Of a stretch of DNA of 64,000 nt, positions 51,281 to 62,825 are shown one piece after another (position 1 is the first letter of the stretch; the number at the start of each line of letters is the position of its first letter). Origin of the DNA: Shinella kummerowiae. Lineage in GTDB: Bacteria; Pseudomonadota; Alphaproteobacteria; Rhizobiales; Rhizobiaceae. The position numbers and the translations under genes are program-made. The stretch lies in contig NZ_WUMK01000006.1 in assembly GCF_009827055.1 (NCBI RefSeq), positions 124,001 through 188,000 on the forward strand, given 5' to 3'. A model generated the notes under the pieces. The model ran no database searches. It was given only the letters and a program-made list of their open reading frames with translations, and was not told the origin of the DNA.

Positions 51281-51309
51281 AAAAGCGCATGGTAGGGCCG
51301 ATTTGTCAA
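51281..51309 (-). promoter_or_regulatory. Possible aspS promoter
   Basis: Consensus TTGACA (51309-51304) on the minus strand, 17 bases, then GCTTTT, a poor -10, about 70 bases before the start codon. Supported mainly by the perfect -35 and position. Confidence 0.4.
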
Positions 51310-51334
51310 GGCTTGGCGGCTTTGGGCAGGTAGC

Positions 51335-51378
51335 CCTCTGCCGTGTCTTTCGGATCATCCGGCAAGACACGGCAGAGG
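51335..51378. repeat. Perfect 15-bp inverted repeat with an inner palindrome
   Basis: Arms CCTCTGCCGTGTCTT (51335-51349) and AAGACACGGCAGAGG (51364-51378), around a 14-base centre that itself contains CGGAT-C-ATCCG. It lies between divergent aspS and the PD-(D/E)XK-like gene, upstream of the likely aspS promoter. No T run on either side, and no gene ends here, so it is not an ordinary terminator. Confidence 0.7.
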
Positions 51379-51481
51379 TGCCGCGAAATCTACAGCCGAA
51401 TGTTCACGGCCTAGAAAGTAGCCTGTGGCAAACCACGTCGACATTCACGCCATACTCGCCGCTAGGTAAAAGCATCATCTC

Positions 51482-52399
51482 ATGAGACATTTGGACGCCA
51501 ACGCGCTTCGCCAATCCAACGGCTATGTTGGAGAAAAAAGAACGGCCGGCATTGTGGCACGCCATTTCCTCGTACTCAAAAAAAGCGTCGACAGTGATGG
51601 CGCCGATTTCGTCCTTGGCCTCCCCATACAGTCGGTCGAACACGAGAGGGAAAGGGCGAAGGGCATTCCGACCTTCGCGGTCGTTCAGGCGAAATTCTTC
51701 GAACGCGGCACGACTGTCTACGTCAACCCATCGTACGCAATCGATGATGGTGGAGCGCGGTCGAATTTCTTTCTGTTCCTCCACACGGACGACGAGCACG
51801 GCGAACACATCAAATATTTTCTGACGGCGGAGGAGGTCATCAGCCTTCCGACCGGTGAGAACGGACTAAAACGGTTCTCACTCACCGCCGAGAACGATAG
51901 GAGCGAGTTTCGAGAGCGAACCATTGAACAGATCATCACGCTCATGCACAGCGGCATGGAAGCGTACCATGACCGTTGCACGACCGAGTACTTCGAAAAG
52001 GTCACCCTGCCGCTGCGTATGAGGTCAAGTTCCAACGCACGGGAGCTCCGTACCGAGTACCTTCTCATGCGGATTTCCCTGCCATGCACACCTATTCGCC
52101 CGGAAGACGACGACGAACGTGTGGTCTTTGCGCGTTCAGCCAACAACTCCGTCACCCGCCCGCTAGATGCGCGCTGGGATCTCTTTCAAACCACGGGCAC
52201 GTGGAATTGGGGTGGCAAGGGAGAAGGCTCGAAATTGCTGGCGATGAGCATTCTTGCTCACTATCTTGGTTGGGACGCTGCGCCCACCCACGAGCAGCAG
52301 ATGGCCTTCCTTTTGAAGGTCGTTGCAAAGCTCGACAAAGATCGCGACCACGTCGTCATCGGCGAACAAATTGAGGCCGCTCTTTCAGGCCTGATCTGA
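51482..52399 (+). CDS. Orphan PD-(D/E)XK (DUF4365-like) nuclease protein with C-terminal DUF6166-like domain
   Basis: Function unknown; 305 residues. The N-terminal part fits a DUF4365-type nuclease core: NGYVGEKRTAGIVARHFL (Glu18), GADFVLGL (Asp42) and FAVVQAKFF (Gln69, Lys71), an E...D...QxK set of the PD-(D/E)XK superfamily. Residues 235-305 contain WNWGGKGEGSKLLAMSILAHYLG, like the W-x-WG-x-x-G-x-G signature I associate with DUF6166. The region between (120-230) is unassigned. The gene is visibly richer in A/T than its neighbours (tracts such as GAGAAAAAAGAA), pointing to transfer. The upstream ribosome-binding site is weak. It stands alone between aspS and an MFS gene. Confidence 0.68.
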   Translation: MRHLDANALRQSNGYVGEKRTAGIVARHFLVLKKSVDSDGADFVLGLPIQSVEHERERAKGIPTFAVVQAKFFERGTTVYVNPSYAIDDGGARSNFFLFLHTDDEHGEHIKYFLTAEEVISLPTGENGLKRFSLTAENDRSEFRERTIEQIITLMHSGMEAYHDRCTTEYFEKVTLPLRMRSSSNARELRTEYLLMRISLPCTPIRPEDDDERVVFARSANNSVTRPLDARWDLFQTTGTWNWGGKGEGSKLLAMSILAHYLGWDAAPTHEQQMAFLLKVVAKLDKDRDHVVIGEQIEAALSGLI

Positions 52400-52484
52400 C
52401 GCTCACGGAGAGGAGGCCTGCTGGCATACCTACCTTTTCCATTTGCCCCCTCCCATTCCAAAAATCCTCCGCCATAGTGCCGGC

Positions 52485-56474: not shown

Positions 56475-57626
56475 TCAGAGGATGAAATCACCCACCTTGA
56501 GAGCGACGCTGGCGTCGAGGATGATGGAGAAATCCCTGACGCCATCGCCGTTGATATCGCCCTGGATGATGGTGTCACCCGAGGAAAGCTGGTAGCGCAG
56601 CTGGCCTGCCTTGTCGCTGAAGGCCGCGGTGCCGATGAAGGTGAAGGCCTGCTCGCCGCTCACGAGCGAGTTGGCATCCATGCCCGAGACGTCGATCCTG
56701 TCCTTCTCCGTCTGGCTGAAGTCGAGAATCTTGTCGCCATGAGCGGCCGTCTTAGTATCGAAAACGAAGGTATCGGCGGCGGTGCCGCCCTTGAAGATAT
56801 TGGCCACATCATTGGCGATGAATGTGTCCTTGCCCTTGCCGCCCGTTGCATTCTCGAAATTGGAGATAACAAACTCGCCGTGTGTGCCCTCGACGGTGCG
56901 CCGGCCGTTCAGATCGATGGTCACCCCTATGGTGAACGCCGAGAAGTCGACGGTGTCGGAATCCTTGGCACCCGGCAGATCGTCGGATATGCCATTGCCA
57001 CCATGCAGGACCGCGCCCTGCGAGTTGGCGCTGATTTTGATGATATCCGCATCCTGCCCCATGTGGATGAAGTGAGCGCCACCCGCCCCAAGCGAAACGA
57101 CGTCATTGCCGCGCCCGGTATAGGCAGATCCGACCCAGGCATTTTCGGTGGTCGTCAGTCGGTCGTTGCCCCGGCCGAGGTCCATGCTGCCGACTTCACC
57201 GTTGCCGACCACGGTCACCGTGTCGTCACCCCGGTTCAGACCAATATAGCTCGCCCAGTAGCCGATGGTCACCTTCTGGGAGGCGCCGCTGCCAACCAGC
57301 GTCTCCACTTCGGCATTCTTCAGGACGATTGTGCTCGTCGCGCTGGTGCCGAGCGCAATATGGCTGATGTAGACGCGGTCGCTATCGCCAACGCCGGTTG
57401 TTGCATCGGTGATGTTCACGCTGGCGTTCCCGGCGAAGCGCAGCACGTCCGCACCCCATGACTTGCTGCTGAGCGTCAGATTTACCGTGCGCAGCGGCGC
57501 GTCGGTGGGCGCCCATATCGACAACATGTCCAGCCATCGGCCAGACCACGTATAAGTGTCACTTCCGACCGTAAATGCCGTCGATCCGTTCAGCGTCCTG
57601 CTGATGTTCGAAGTAATGGTGCTCAC
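56475..57626 (-). CDS. RTX-type secreted protein, degenerate repeats (paralogue 1)
   Basis: Putative type I-secreted calcium-binding protein of 383 residues, without a Sec signal. The middle has repeats of the form V-G-S-x-D-L-G-R-G-N-D (GRGNDRLTTTENAWVGS, GRGNDVVSLGAGG) and a GGKGKDTFIANDVANIFKGG stretch, looser than canonical GGxGxDxLx. The C-terminal 90 residues (KILDFSQTEKDRIDVSGMDAN ... DGVRDFSIILDASVALKVGDFIL) match the serralysin-type M10 C-terminal secretion domain. Start is GTG at 57626 with AGGGGG 8 bases ahead. No secretion genes are nearby. Its C-terminus is shared with the two other RTX genes at 60.7-62.7 kb. Confidence 0.8.
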   Translation of the reverse strand: MSTITSNISRTLNGSTAFTVGSDTYTWSGRWLDMLSIWAPTDAPLRTVNLTLSSKSWGADVLRFAGNASVNITDATTGVGDSDRVYISHIALGTSATSTIVLKNAEVETLVGSGASQKVTIGYWASYIGLNRGDDTVTVVGNGEVGSMDLGRGNDRLTTTENAWVGSAYTGRGNDVVSLGAGGAHFIHMGQDADIIKISANSQGAVLHGGNGISDDLPGAKDSDTVDFSAFTIGVTIDLNGRRTVEGTHGEFVISNFENATGGKGKDTFIANDVANIFKGGTAADTFVFDTKTAAHGDKILDFSQTEKDRIDVSGMDANSLVSGEQAFTFIGTAAFSDKAGQLRYQLSSGDTIIQGDINGDGVRDFSIILDASVALKVGDFIL

Positions 57627-57884
57627 GTTCAAGTCCCCCTTGTCCCGATGGTTCAAGACCGCACCGGAGGCCCTCTGCCCCGGGTCTGGTTCTGAAAGTC
57701 TGATCAGGGCACCGGAGCAATTCGCGGCTGCGTGCATGAGCAGAACAGTCAGCCTGTCCCGCTGCCCGTCCACTCGTGTTCACGAACAATAAGTCGCGTT
57801 GGCTCCCCCGGCGCCCCTATATTCCATCGTCGATTGAACAAGCTTTTTCTAAAAAATCAAGTTCATTCCATCGCCTCGCCAAAC

Positions 57885-60713: not shown

Positions 60714-61541
60714 TCAGAGAATGAAGTCAGTCGCCTTGAAGTCGATGCTGCCATCAACCAGGATGGAGAAATCCGCATTGCCGTCACCGTTCATGTCGGC
60801 GTGGATGAGGGTGTCGCCACCCACCTTTTCATAGCGCAGTTCGCCAGCGACCTTGTGGAACTTTTCCGCGCCTATAAAGGCGAAAGCCTGATCGCCGGCG
60901 ATCTTGGTGTTAGCGTCGATTACCGACAGGCTGACGCGATCCTTCTCCGACTGGCTGAAATCGGAGATCGTGTCACGACCGGATGCACCCACGGTCGATT
61001 CTGCAATCGACCTGAAGACGAATGTGTCGGCACCAGCACCCCCGACAAGCTTGTCCGCACCAATGCCGCCACGAAGCTGATCGTTACCGATATTGCCTTC
61101 GAGCACATCGTTACCAGCTCCGCCAAAAATGGCGTCGTTGCCGGCACCGCCGAAGAGATAGTCAGCATATTGAGTGCCAGTGATCGTATCATTGCCGGAG
61201 AACAGATAGTCCCACGCCCCCTTCGTGTCGGCGGCCATGAAGTAGTCGAAGAACACCTTGGCAGAAAGGTTGAGGCCGCTGAAGGCAATCTGGTTGACGC
61301 CGCCCTGGCCGATATCGAGCTTCGTGACGGTACCGTTCAGGACGTCCTCGATCGTATTGCCGTTCGTCCTGAACGAGAAATTCGTGCCGCTGAAGAGCGC
61401 ATAGTTGCTACCGCTTGCATCGTGCAATTTGATGCTCGATGGCGTCAGCTGCCAGTGATCGTAACCGGCGAGAACGCGAATATCGAGAAGTGAAAAATTC
61501 ACGCCCTGGTTTCCCACGGGCTGCGTCTTCACGGTTGCCAT
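60714..61541 (-). CDS. RTX-type secreted protein (paralogue 2)
   Basis: Predicted calcium-binding, type I-secreted protein of 275 residues, no N-terminal signal. After a 130-residue N-terminal domain (VNFSLLDIRVLAGYDHW ... ALFSGTNFSFRTNGNTIEDVLNGTVTKLDIG), it has RTX nonapeptides: GGAGNDAIF, GGAGNDVLE, GNIGNDQLR, GGIGADKLV, GGAGADTFVF. The C-terminal DFSQSEKDRVSLSVIDAN ... GNADFSILVDGSIDFKATDFIL is the M10-type secretion domain. AGGAGAG precedes ATG 61541. Paralogue of the gene at 61.8-62.7 kb. Confidence 0.9.
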   Translation of the reverse strand: MATVKTQPVGNQGVNFSLLDIRVLAGYDHWQLTPSSIKLHDASGSNYALFSGTNFSFRTNGNTIEDVLNGTVTKLDIGQGGVNQIAFSGLNLSAKVFFDYFMAADTKGAWDYLFSGNDTITGTQYADYLFGGAGNDAIFGGAGNDVLEGNIGNDQLRGGIGADKLVGGAGADTFVFRSIAESTVGASGRDTISDFSQSEKDRVSLSVIDANTKIAGDQAFAFIGAEKFHKVAGELRYEKVGGDTLIHADMNGDGNADFSILVDGSIDFKATDFIL

Positions 61542-61829
61542 GCCTGATCTCTCCTGTTTTTCCAACGGGTCAATCCGTCGTTTGGGAAGATTGGATAGCG
61601 GAAGAACGGCAGAAAGCAATGAAAGCGGTGTGTTTACGTTTCATAAACCACACGGCGTGATTAACTTGCCCCAAAGCGGAACATATCGGCAATTTCAAAC
61701 ACTTGGGTCTCTGTCCGAATACGGCTCATGTTTCAAAATCGTGCGGGTGGTTGGACCACGGCAAACACGGCGGACGGATTTACGCGGATGAGGGCGGGAT
61801 TCGCCCTCACCGTCCTGACAACGGATCCT

Positions 61830-62708
61830 TCAGAGAAGAAAATCGCCGGACTTCAGGGTAACGCTTGGGTCGAGAACGATCGAGAAATCAGCCTTGCCGT
61901 CGCCGTTGGTGTCGCCGTGGATGAAGGTGTCACCGGACTTCTTCTCATAGCGCAATTCGCCGGCCTTGTTGTGGAACACGTCCGTTCCAATGAACTTGAA
62001 AGCCTGGTCACCCGCGACCTTGGTATTGGCGTCGATGGATTTCAGATCGATCCGGTCCTTTTCCGACTGGCTGAAGTCGAAGATCTTGTCGCGGCCGGAG
62101 GAAGCGACCGTGGATTCGCTCGCGGCTTTGAAGATGAAGGTGTCCGCGCCCACGCCGCCATAAAGCTTGTCAGCGCCCTTGCCGCCGTACAGCTTGTCGA
62201 TGCCGGACTCACCACGCAGCACGTCATTGCCGGCATCGCCATTCAGGGTGTCGTTTCCGGTGTTGCCATAGAGGGTATCATTGCCACTTCCGCCCGAAAC
62301 GACATCATTTCCGCCACCGCTCGAAATCACGTCGGCAAAACCCGTGCCGGTGATCGTATCATTGCCTGCAAAGACATAGTTGCGCGCACCGGTAGGATTT
62401 CCGGCAATGTAGAAATCGAAGAGTTTGGCCGCCGACAGATTGGCATCCGAGAAGGCGAAGACCTTGACGCCGCTGATAACCAGGTCAAACTTCGTGACCG
62501 TTCCGGCCGTGATATCCTGGATGAACGGGCCGCTCTTGAGATATTTGAAACCTGTGCCCGTGAAGAGCGCGTAGTTGCTGCCGTTGTCGAAAAACTTGGC
62601 GCTCGTCGTGGACGTCGTCGCGAAATCGTAATCGCCCAGCAGACGTATATCGAGATCCACCGTATTTACTCCGCGTCCGCCCAAAGCCTGCAGCTTCAAA
62701 ATGGCCAT
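61830..62708 (-). CDS. RTX-type secreted protein (paralogue 3)
   Basis: Predicted calcium-binding secreted protein of 292 residues, similar throughout to paralogue 2: N-terminal domain (VDLDIRLLGDYDFATT ... YALFTGTGFKYLKSGPFIQDITAGTVTKFDLV), then at least seven RTX repeats such as GGSGNDTLY, GNTGNDTLN, GDAGNDVLR and GGKGADKLY, and the C-terminus DFSQSEKDRIDLKSIDANTK ... DFSIVLDPSVTLKSGDFLL. GGGGGG-type ribosome-binding site before ATG 62708. No exporter genes are in the window. Function not evident; the shared N-terminal fold is unassigned. Confidence 0.9.
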   Translation of the reverse strand: MAILKLQALGGRGVNTVDLDIRLLGDYDFATTSTTSAKFFDNGSNYALFTGTGFKYLKSGPFIQDITAGTVTKFDLVISGVKVFAFSDANLSAAKLFDFYIAGNPTGARNYVFAGNDTITGTGFADVISSGGGNDVVSGGSGNDTLYGNTGNDTLNGDAGNDVLRGESGIDKLYGGKGADKLYGGVGADTFIFKAASESTVASSGRDKIFDFSQSEKDRIDLKSIDANTKVAGDQAFKFIGTDVFHNKAGELRYEKKSGDTFIHGDTNGDGKADFSIVLDPSVTLKSGDFLL

Positions 62709-62825
62709 GTCATTCCCCCCAACCCTGAACGCGCCGTCAGCGCCTATTTCCGCTACCACGGATTGAACAAGCAAGTACGAAAAAACACAAGCGCGTTTCT
62801 TTGCCGTCGCGACCTGGACGGTGAA

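Follow-up and report, generated by a model that had tools for sequence, protein, structure and literature searches.

We analysed a 64,000-nucleotide stretch of Shinella kummerowiae DNA (positions 124,001 to 188,000 of contig NZ_WUMK01000006.1; hereafter the window), in which the gene at 51482..52399 on the forward (+) strand encodes a 305-aa fusion of a predicted PD-(D/E)XK nuclease module and a DUF6166 domain, as found from the list of open reading frames (ORFs), a genome search and a protein search. On balance, we favour the explanation that this gene was acquired horizontally and by itself encodes an effector nuclease against phages or plasmids, with DUF6166 probably as its gate or targeting part. 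As most of the few loci read for relatives of the N-domain hold defence genes, we regard it as a promising candidate for a new bacterial defence system made up of one gene. The ORF comprises 305 codons free of internal stops and is single-copy in the 6.34-Mb genome. An earlier note, made from the sequence alone, had given its coordinates and length correctly; its observation is real and better founded than such a note could know.

The predicted N-terminal nuclease module

The nuclease module covers residues 1-171 (51482..51994, + strand), as delimited by a match to the N-terminal profile A4, and an AlphaFold2 model with a fold match showed in it a helix (residues 6-25) and strands at 30-37, 40-46 and 66-72. 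Glu18 (51533..51535) in helix 1, Asp42 (51605..51607) in the second strand and the Q-x-K motif Gln69-Ala70-Lys71 (51686..51694) in the third strand, all on the + strand, were located where the earlier note had put them. Glu18, Asp42 and Lys71 are each kept in 72 of 72 aligned rows and Gln69 in 71, the sole exception being a fragment; these figures are generous, because the word-based search favours relatives keeping such words, and the 72 rows contain neither P0071, whose match is short, nor P0001, which nearly duplicates the window protein, but do contain L003 and P0012, apparently one protein counted twice. Outside the motif the rows vary widely, with a mean column identity of 32%. Since G14, G17, E18, D42 and K71 are the sole invariant columns of a 70-sequence alignment, the putative catalytic motif is not a product of chance, as judged from the alignment. 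A smaller set of nine sequences, with one Gramella member, has G14, G17, E18, D37, D39, G40, D42, Q69 and K71 among its invariant columns.

Both hallmarks of the PD-(D/E)XK superfamily were found: a core fold whose adjacent strands carry the active site, in the predicted model and its fold match, and a conserved acidic residue together with (E/Q)-x-K, with the counts given above for D42, Q69, K71 and E18. The structural aligner gives ranges only and not a residue-level superposition of the site. We conclude from the model that residues 1-170 almost certainly adopt a PD-(D/E)XK-type nuclease fold, and this domain would cleave DNA in a metal-dependent manner. The nuclease call of the earlier note is thus upheld by the fold of the model and a near-invariant catalytic set; the absence of a structural match and the poor conservation of Glu18, Asp42 and Lys71, which it had named as grounds for refutation, did not occur. 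Its term "DUF4365-type" fails as a sequence family, since PF14280 (DUF4365) is matched by 0 of 70 relatives at E <= 10 with the HMMER filters on. What the protein shares with DUF4365 is the fold and the motif, and not membership of the Pfam family; "DREN-like, unnamed PD-(D/E)XK family" should be the better label.

The C-terminal DUF6166 domain

Residues 226-301 (52157..52384, + strand) match PF19663 (DUF6166) with 30.1 bits against a curated cut-off of 27 (E 5e-7), and the genome search placed the domain at the same position. It is the only Pfam domain found in the protein, and the C-terminal assignment of the earlier note thus passes the curated cut-off. When modelled alone, residues 177-305 gave a predicted local distance difference test score (pLDDT) of 86.1 and a predicted template modelling score (pTM) of 0.82. 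The C-terminus resembles DUF6166 in its WG-x-x-G-x-G / LA-x-x-IL core and differs in its setting, because the seven other loci whose frames were read have the domain in short ORFs or behind unassigned sequence, never behind this nuclease. In three loci (L005, L006 and L007) DUF6166 ends a longer open frame, of which the N-terminal part, beginning MKKYVVKLRF or alike, is unassigned. No paper naming DUF6166 was found in the literature searched.

Relatives and exchangeable C-termini

Among about 5.8 billion clustered proteins, 5 relatives were obtained by single-sequence search and 8 by profile, while the profile A4 retrieved 65 proteins. At E < 0.001, a Pfam scan of 70 members gave DUF6166 in 7 and an IS66 element in 1; the remainder had nothing convincing. 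The C-termini of 63 sequences, including the doubles (P0001; L003/P0012), were clustered by single linkage (BLASTP, E <= 1e-4 over at least 40 columns) and fell into 8 clusters, of 45 and 9 members plus six small ones; eight is an upper figure, as P0062, P0064 and P0065 (396-399 aa) may represent a divergent offshoot of the 398-aa kind. The 45-member cluster is this kind, of roughly 398 aa, with some shorter proteins, and one small cluster is the 882-aa Gramella protein. The 9-member cluster consists of the window protein, P0001-P0006, P0010 (joined by BLASTP, without a Pfam DUF6166 call) and P0014. Because the C-termini separate in this way, the N-domain is modular, and by sequence comparison we describe it as an unnamed module with exchangeable C-termini of up to eight classes, the DUF6166 kind being one. 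The protein had been called an orphan of undescribed architecture; with nine sequences in its C-terminal cluster, itself and the near-duplicate P0001 included, the first term does not quite hold, and as to the second, PADLOC gave no match and the literature searched no paper naming DUF6166.

The 45-sequence class (P0012, P0015-P0055 and others) combines this nuclease N-domain with a C-terminus common to its members, for which Pfam gave no convincing match; Bradyrhizobium, Mesorhizobium, Xanthobacter and Ensifer are among its source names.

The family is rare. Full-length relatives were found in 1 of 394 family genomes, which is the window's own; besides that genome, the N-domain was matched in 1/394 and 1/398 sampled genomes, the samples overlapping and only the best first-look candidates being scored per genome. 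Phage records gave no N-domain match and plasmid records gave one.

Genomic position and probable acquisition

The gene lies in a variable slot (51316..52446) between conserved edges at aspS and at a gene resembling the major facilitator superfamily (MFS), the exact edges shifting by as much as about 17 bases from one relative to another. Across 20 same-genus genomes, conservation of aspS runs to about window position 51314-51332, where homology ends. Beyond the aspS edge, tblastn (E <= 1e-3) detected no copy of the protein within 13.1-14.9 kb in any of these 20 genomes, 7 of which were also searched whole with the protein profile. In six of them the window's MFS-like, multicopper oxidase and ribonuclease D genes resume after 1.1-2.5 kb of other cargo, comprising a transporter-like and LysR-like pair, GIY-YIG-looking, RTX-like, zinc-ribbon and glycosyltransferase-like genes and a weak DUF5677 match; in the other 14, aspS is followed by a gene of about 200 aa, by eye one family. 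The cargo is different in each of the seven genomes with both flanks (the window; L035, L050-L054).

Because the relatives' flanks hold other genes there, the window gene is one of many cargoes of the slot, and sequence comparison makes it very likely that it was horizontally acquired and arrived as lone cargo. Its low GC content agrees with acquisition: at 0.559 it lies below the mean of 0.629 (sd 0.027) of the 45 window ORFs, the gene itself included. One window ORF is lower and one more nearly as low, both inside 60714-62774. The GC at third codon positions, 0.667 against 0.778 (sd 0.080), is not extreme, being lower in 6 of the 45 ORFs. The variable slot, the other cargo in six relatives and the rarity (1/394) favour the proposal of recent acquisition, and the third ground for refutation named in the earlier note, homologues always in a fixed core locus with aspS, did not occur either.

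The gene does stand alone, as had been remarked, between the divergent aspS upstream, the identity of which was confirmed, and a downstream ORF of membrane-type, MFS-transporter look (by eye), for which a solved relative was sought and none found. A multicopper oxidase and a ribonuclease D gene lie nearby. Within the slot, upstream of the gene, there is an inverted repeat with perfect 15-bp arms (51335..51378), the 10-bp arm core of which occurs once in the genome, and the stretch 51300-51490 folds far better than its shuffles (z -5.29).

In the same slot of genome G315 (L050:1463-2224) there is an AT-rich orphan 253-aa protein with a GIY-YIG-looking motif (by eye) and no Pfam, PDB or PADLOC match. 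Elsewhere in the window, ORFs with RTX-like repeats (by eye) were seen at 56475-57773, 60714-61619 and 61830-62774, and homologous stretches cross-match in relatives; two of these ORFs equal the nuclease gene in AT-richness.

Defence genes near the relatives

Strong defence-gene matches were present in 4 of 5 loci of N-domain relatives, a count made with no random-locus control and from loci none of which is of the DUF6166 kind. In L060, PD-T7-1 comes after the 398-aa gene, with GajB and GajA further on. In L059, the 398-aa gene lies between a type IIG restriction-modification (RM) system and PDC-S32/AbiJ_NTD4; further out are BovA, a phage-type integrase and tRNA-Leu. The relative adjoins an OLD-family ATPase and an HNH effector-like gene in L067 (an IMG/VR contig), and an AriA/OLD-like ATPase and a control-protein-like helix-turn-helix gene in L002 (Gramella). 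In L064 (Klebsiella pKP187), annotated recombinase, PP2C and kinase-family genes are near, and 5 tested of the 9 annotated genes gave no strong defence match. The location in defence loci suggested earlier is therefore supported for the relatives and not for the window gene itself, the neighbours of which are those named above. The window protein matched 0 families of PADLOC-DB 2.0.0 at E <= 10, nothing in NCBIfam and nothing in PHROGs below E 0.26.

As an observation in its own right, L059:4931-15175 forms a compact defence island at tRNA-Leu (type IIG RM, N-domain nuclease, PDC-S32, BovA, integrase).

Proposed function and alternatives

We propose that the gene entered the genome as lone cargo of the aspS/MFS-like slot and that residues 1-170 would be a Mg2+-dependent PD-(D/E)XK nuclease from a family for which Pfam has no model; Glu18, Asp42, Gln69 and Lys71, conserved residues of a predicted fold, are its presumed catalytic site. 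DUF6166 occupies the place of APAZ in SPARDA DREN-APAZ and of the other C-termini in its own family; most likely it would sense a trigger, recognise a target or drive oligomerisation, and the nuclease would be unleashed only during invasion. A role in defence or otherwise against mobile elements is probable. That DUF6166 is the gate or targeting part is quite possible and is suggested by analogy with DREN-APAZ, in which no activity is detected for DREN by itself and assembly activates it (PMC12205087).

The nuclease could instead be restriction-like, with DUF6166 reading a DNA modification or sequence and the PD-(D/E)XK domain cutting there, as in Mrr/type IV and NhoI-type enzymes, which would be defence without triggered collateral cutting. 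We consider this unlikely: the higher fold-match scores belong to the best SPARDA DREN rows (9.8 and 9.0), and no DNA-reading domain turned up for DUF6166, though one may exist. Rather improbable is a structure-specific nuclease of the Hjc kind, serving recombination or mobile-element upkeep and not defence, given the rarity of the N-domain in the sampled genomes, the phage records without a match, the one plasmid record and the defence genes in four of the five loci of relatives.

A role as the nuclease component of a toxin system, whether toxin-antitoxin or inter-bacterial, has very little probability; a paper on contractile injection system toxins mentions DUF4365 (PMC11297309), but no adjacent partner candidate exists among the listed ORFs of at least 80 aa, and Pfam shows no secretion or adaptor domain in the window protein. 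We give equally little credence to a neutral or decaying acquired gene with no selected function in its host. Its being lone cargo in a variable slot, with no promoter-like site in a simple sigma-70 scan, would suit such a gene, but the frame is intact, every motif residue is kept, and P0002-P0006 retain both parts at 37-65% identity (the DUF6166 score of P0006 being under the cut-off).

Under the preferred explanation of a defence effector, DUF6166 would gain its first function and the effector would be a compact one-gene system whose trigger could be traced by exchanging C-termini. More tentatively, the family may be a superfamily, so far without a name, of one-gene defence effectors on the DREN-APAZ plan, in which a conserved nuclease is joined to one of up to eight kinds of interchangeable C-terminal sensors; if so, DUF6166, which is also found without this nuclease, would be a sensor module turned against mobile elements. 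What was an isolated hypothetical gene now stands for a nuclease family that can be tested, its active site named, its C-terminus modular and a link to defence loci hinted at independently. Even if the defence role is wrong, the 65 proteins found by A4 gain a fold and a catalytic prediction.

Comparison with known systems

OLD/Gabija-type ATPases are near N-domain relatives in 3 of the 5 loci (L002, L060 and L067); however, no ATPase is apparent beside the window gene, and the N-domain is no part of Gabija. With archaeal Hjc Holliday junction resolvases and Mrr-type nucleases the similarity is in fold only; the listed Hjc chains have 115-126 residues, whereas the window protein carries a further domain and has a patchy distribution. 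To SPARDA the N-domain is similar in that its fold match is DREN-like. The window protein differs from DREN-APAZ in that its relatives have no PF14280 match, in that DUF6166 stands where APAZ would sit, and in that its neighbours are aspS and the MFS-like ORF, with no adjacent short Argonaute gene. APAZ is reported to have been missing from the domain databases used in PMC6299218, so the silence of Pfam on APAZ carries little weight in this comparison.
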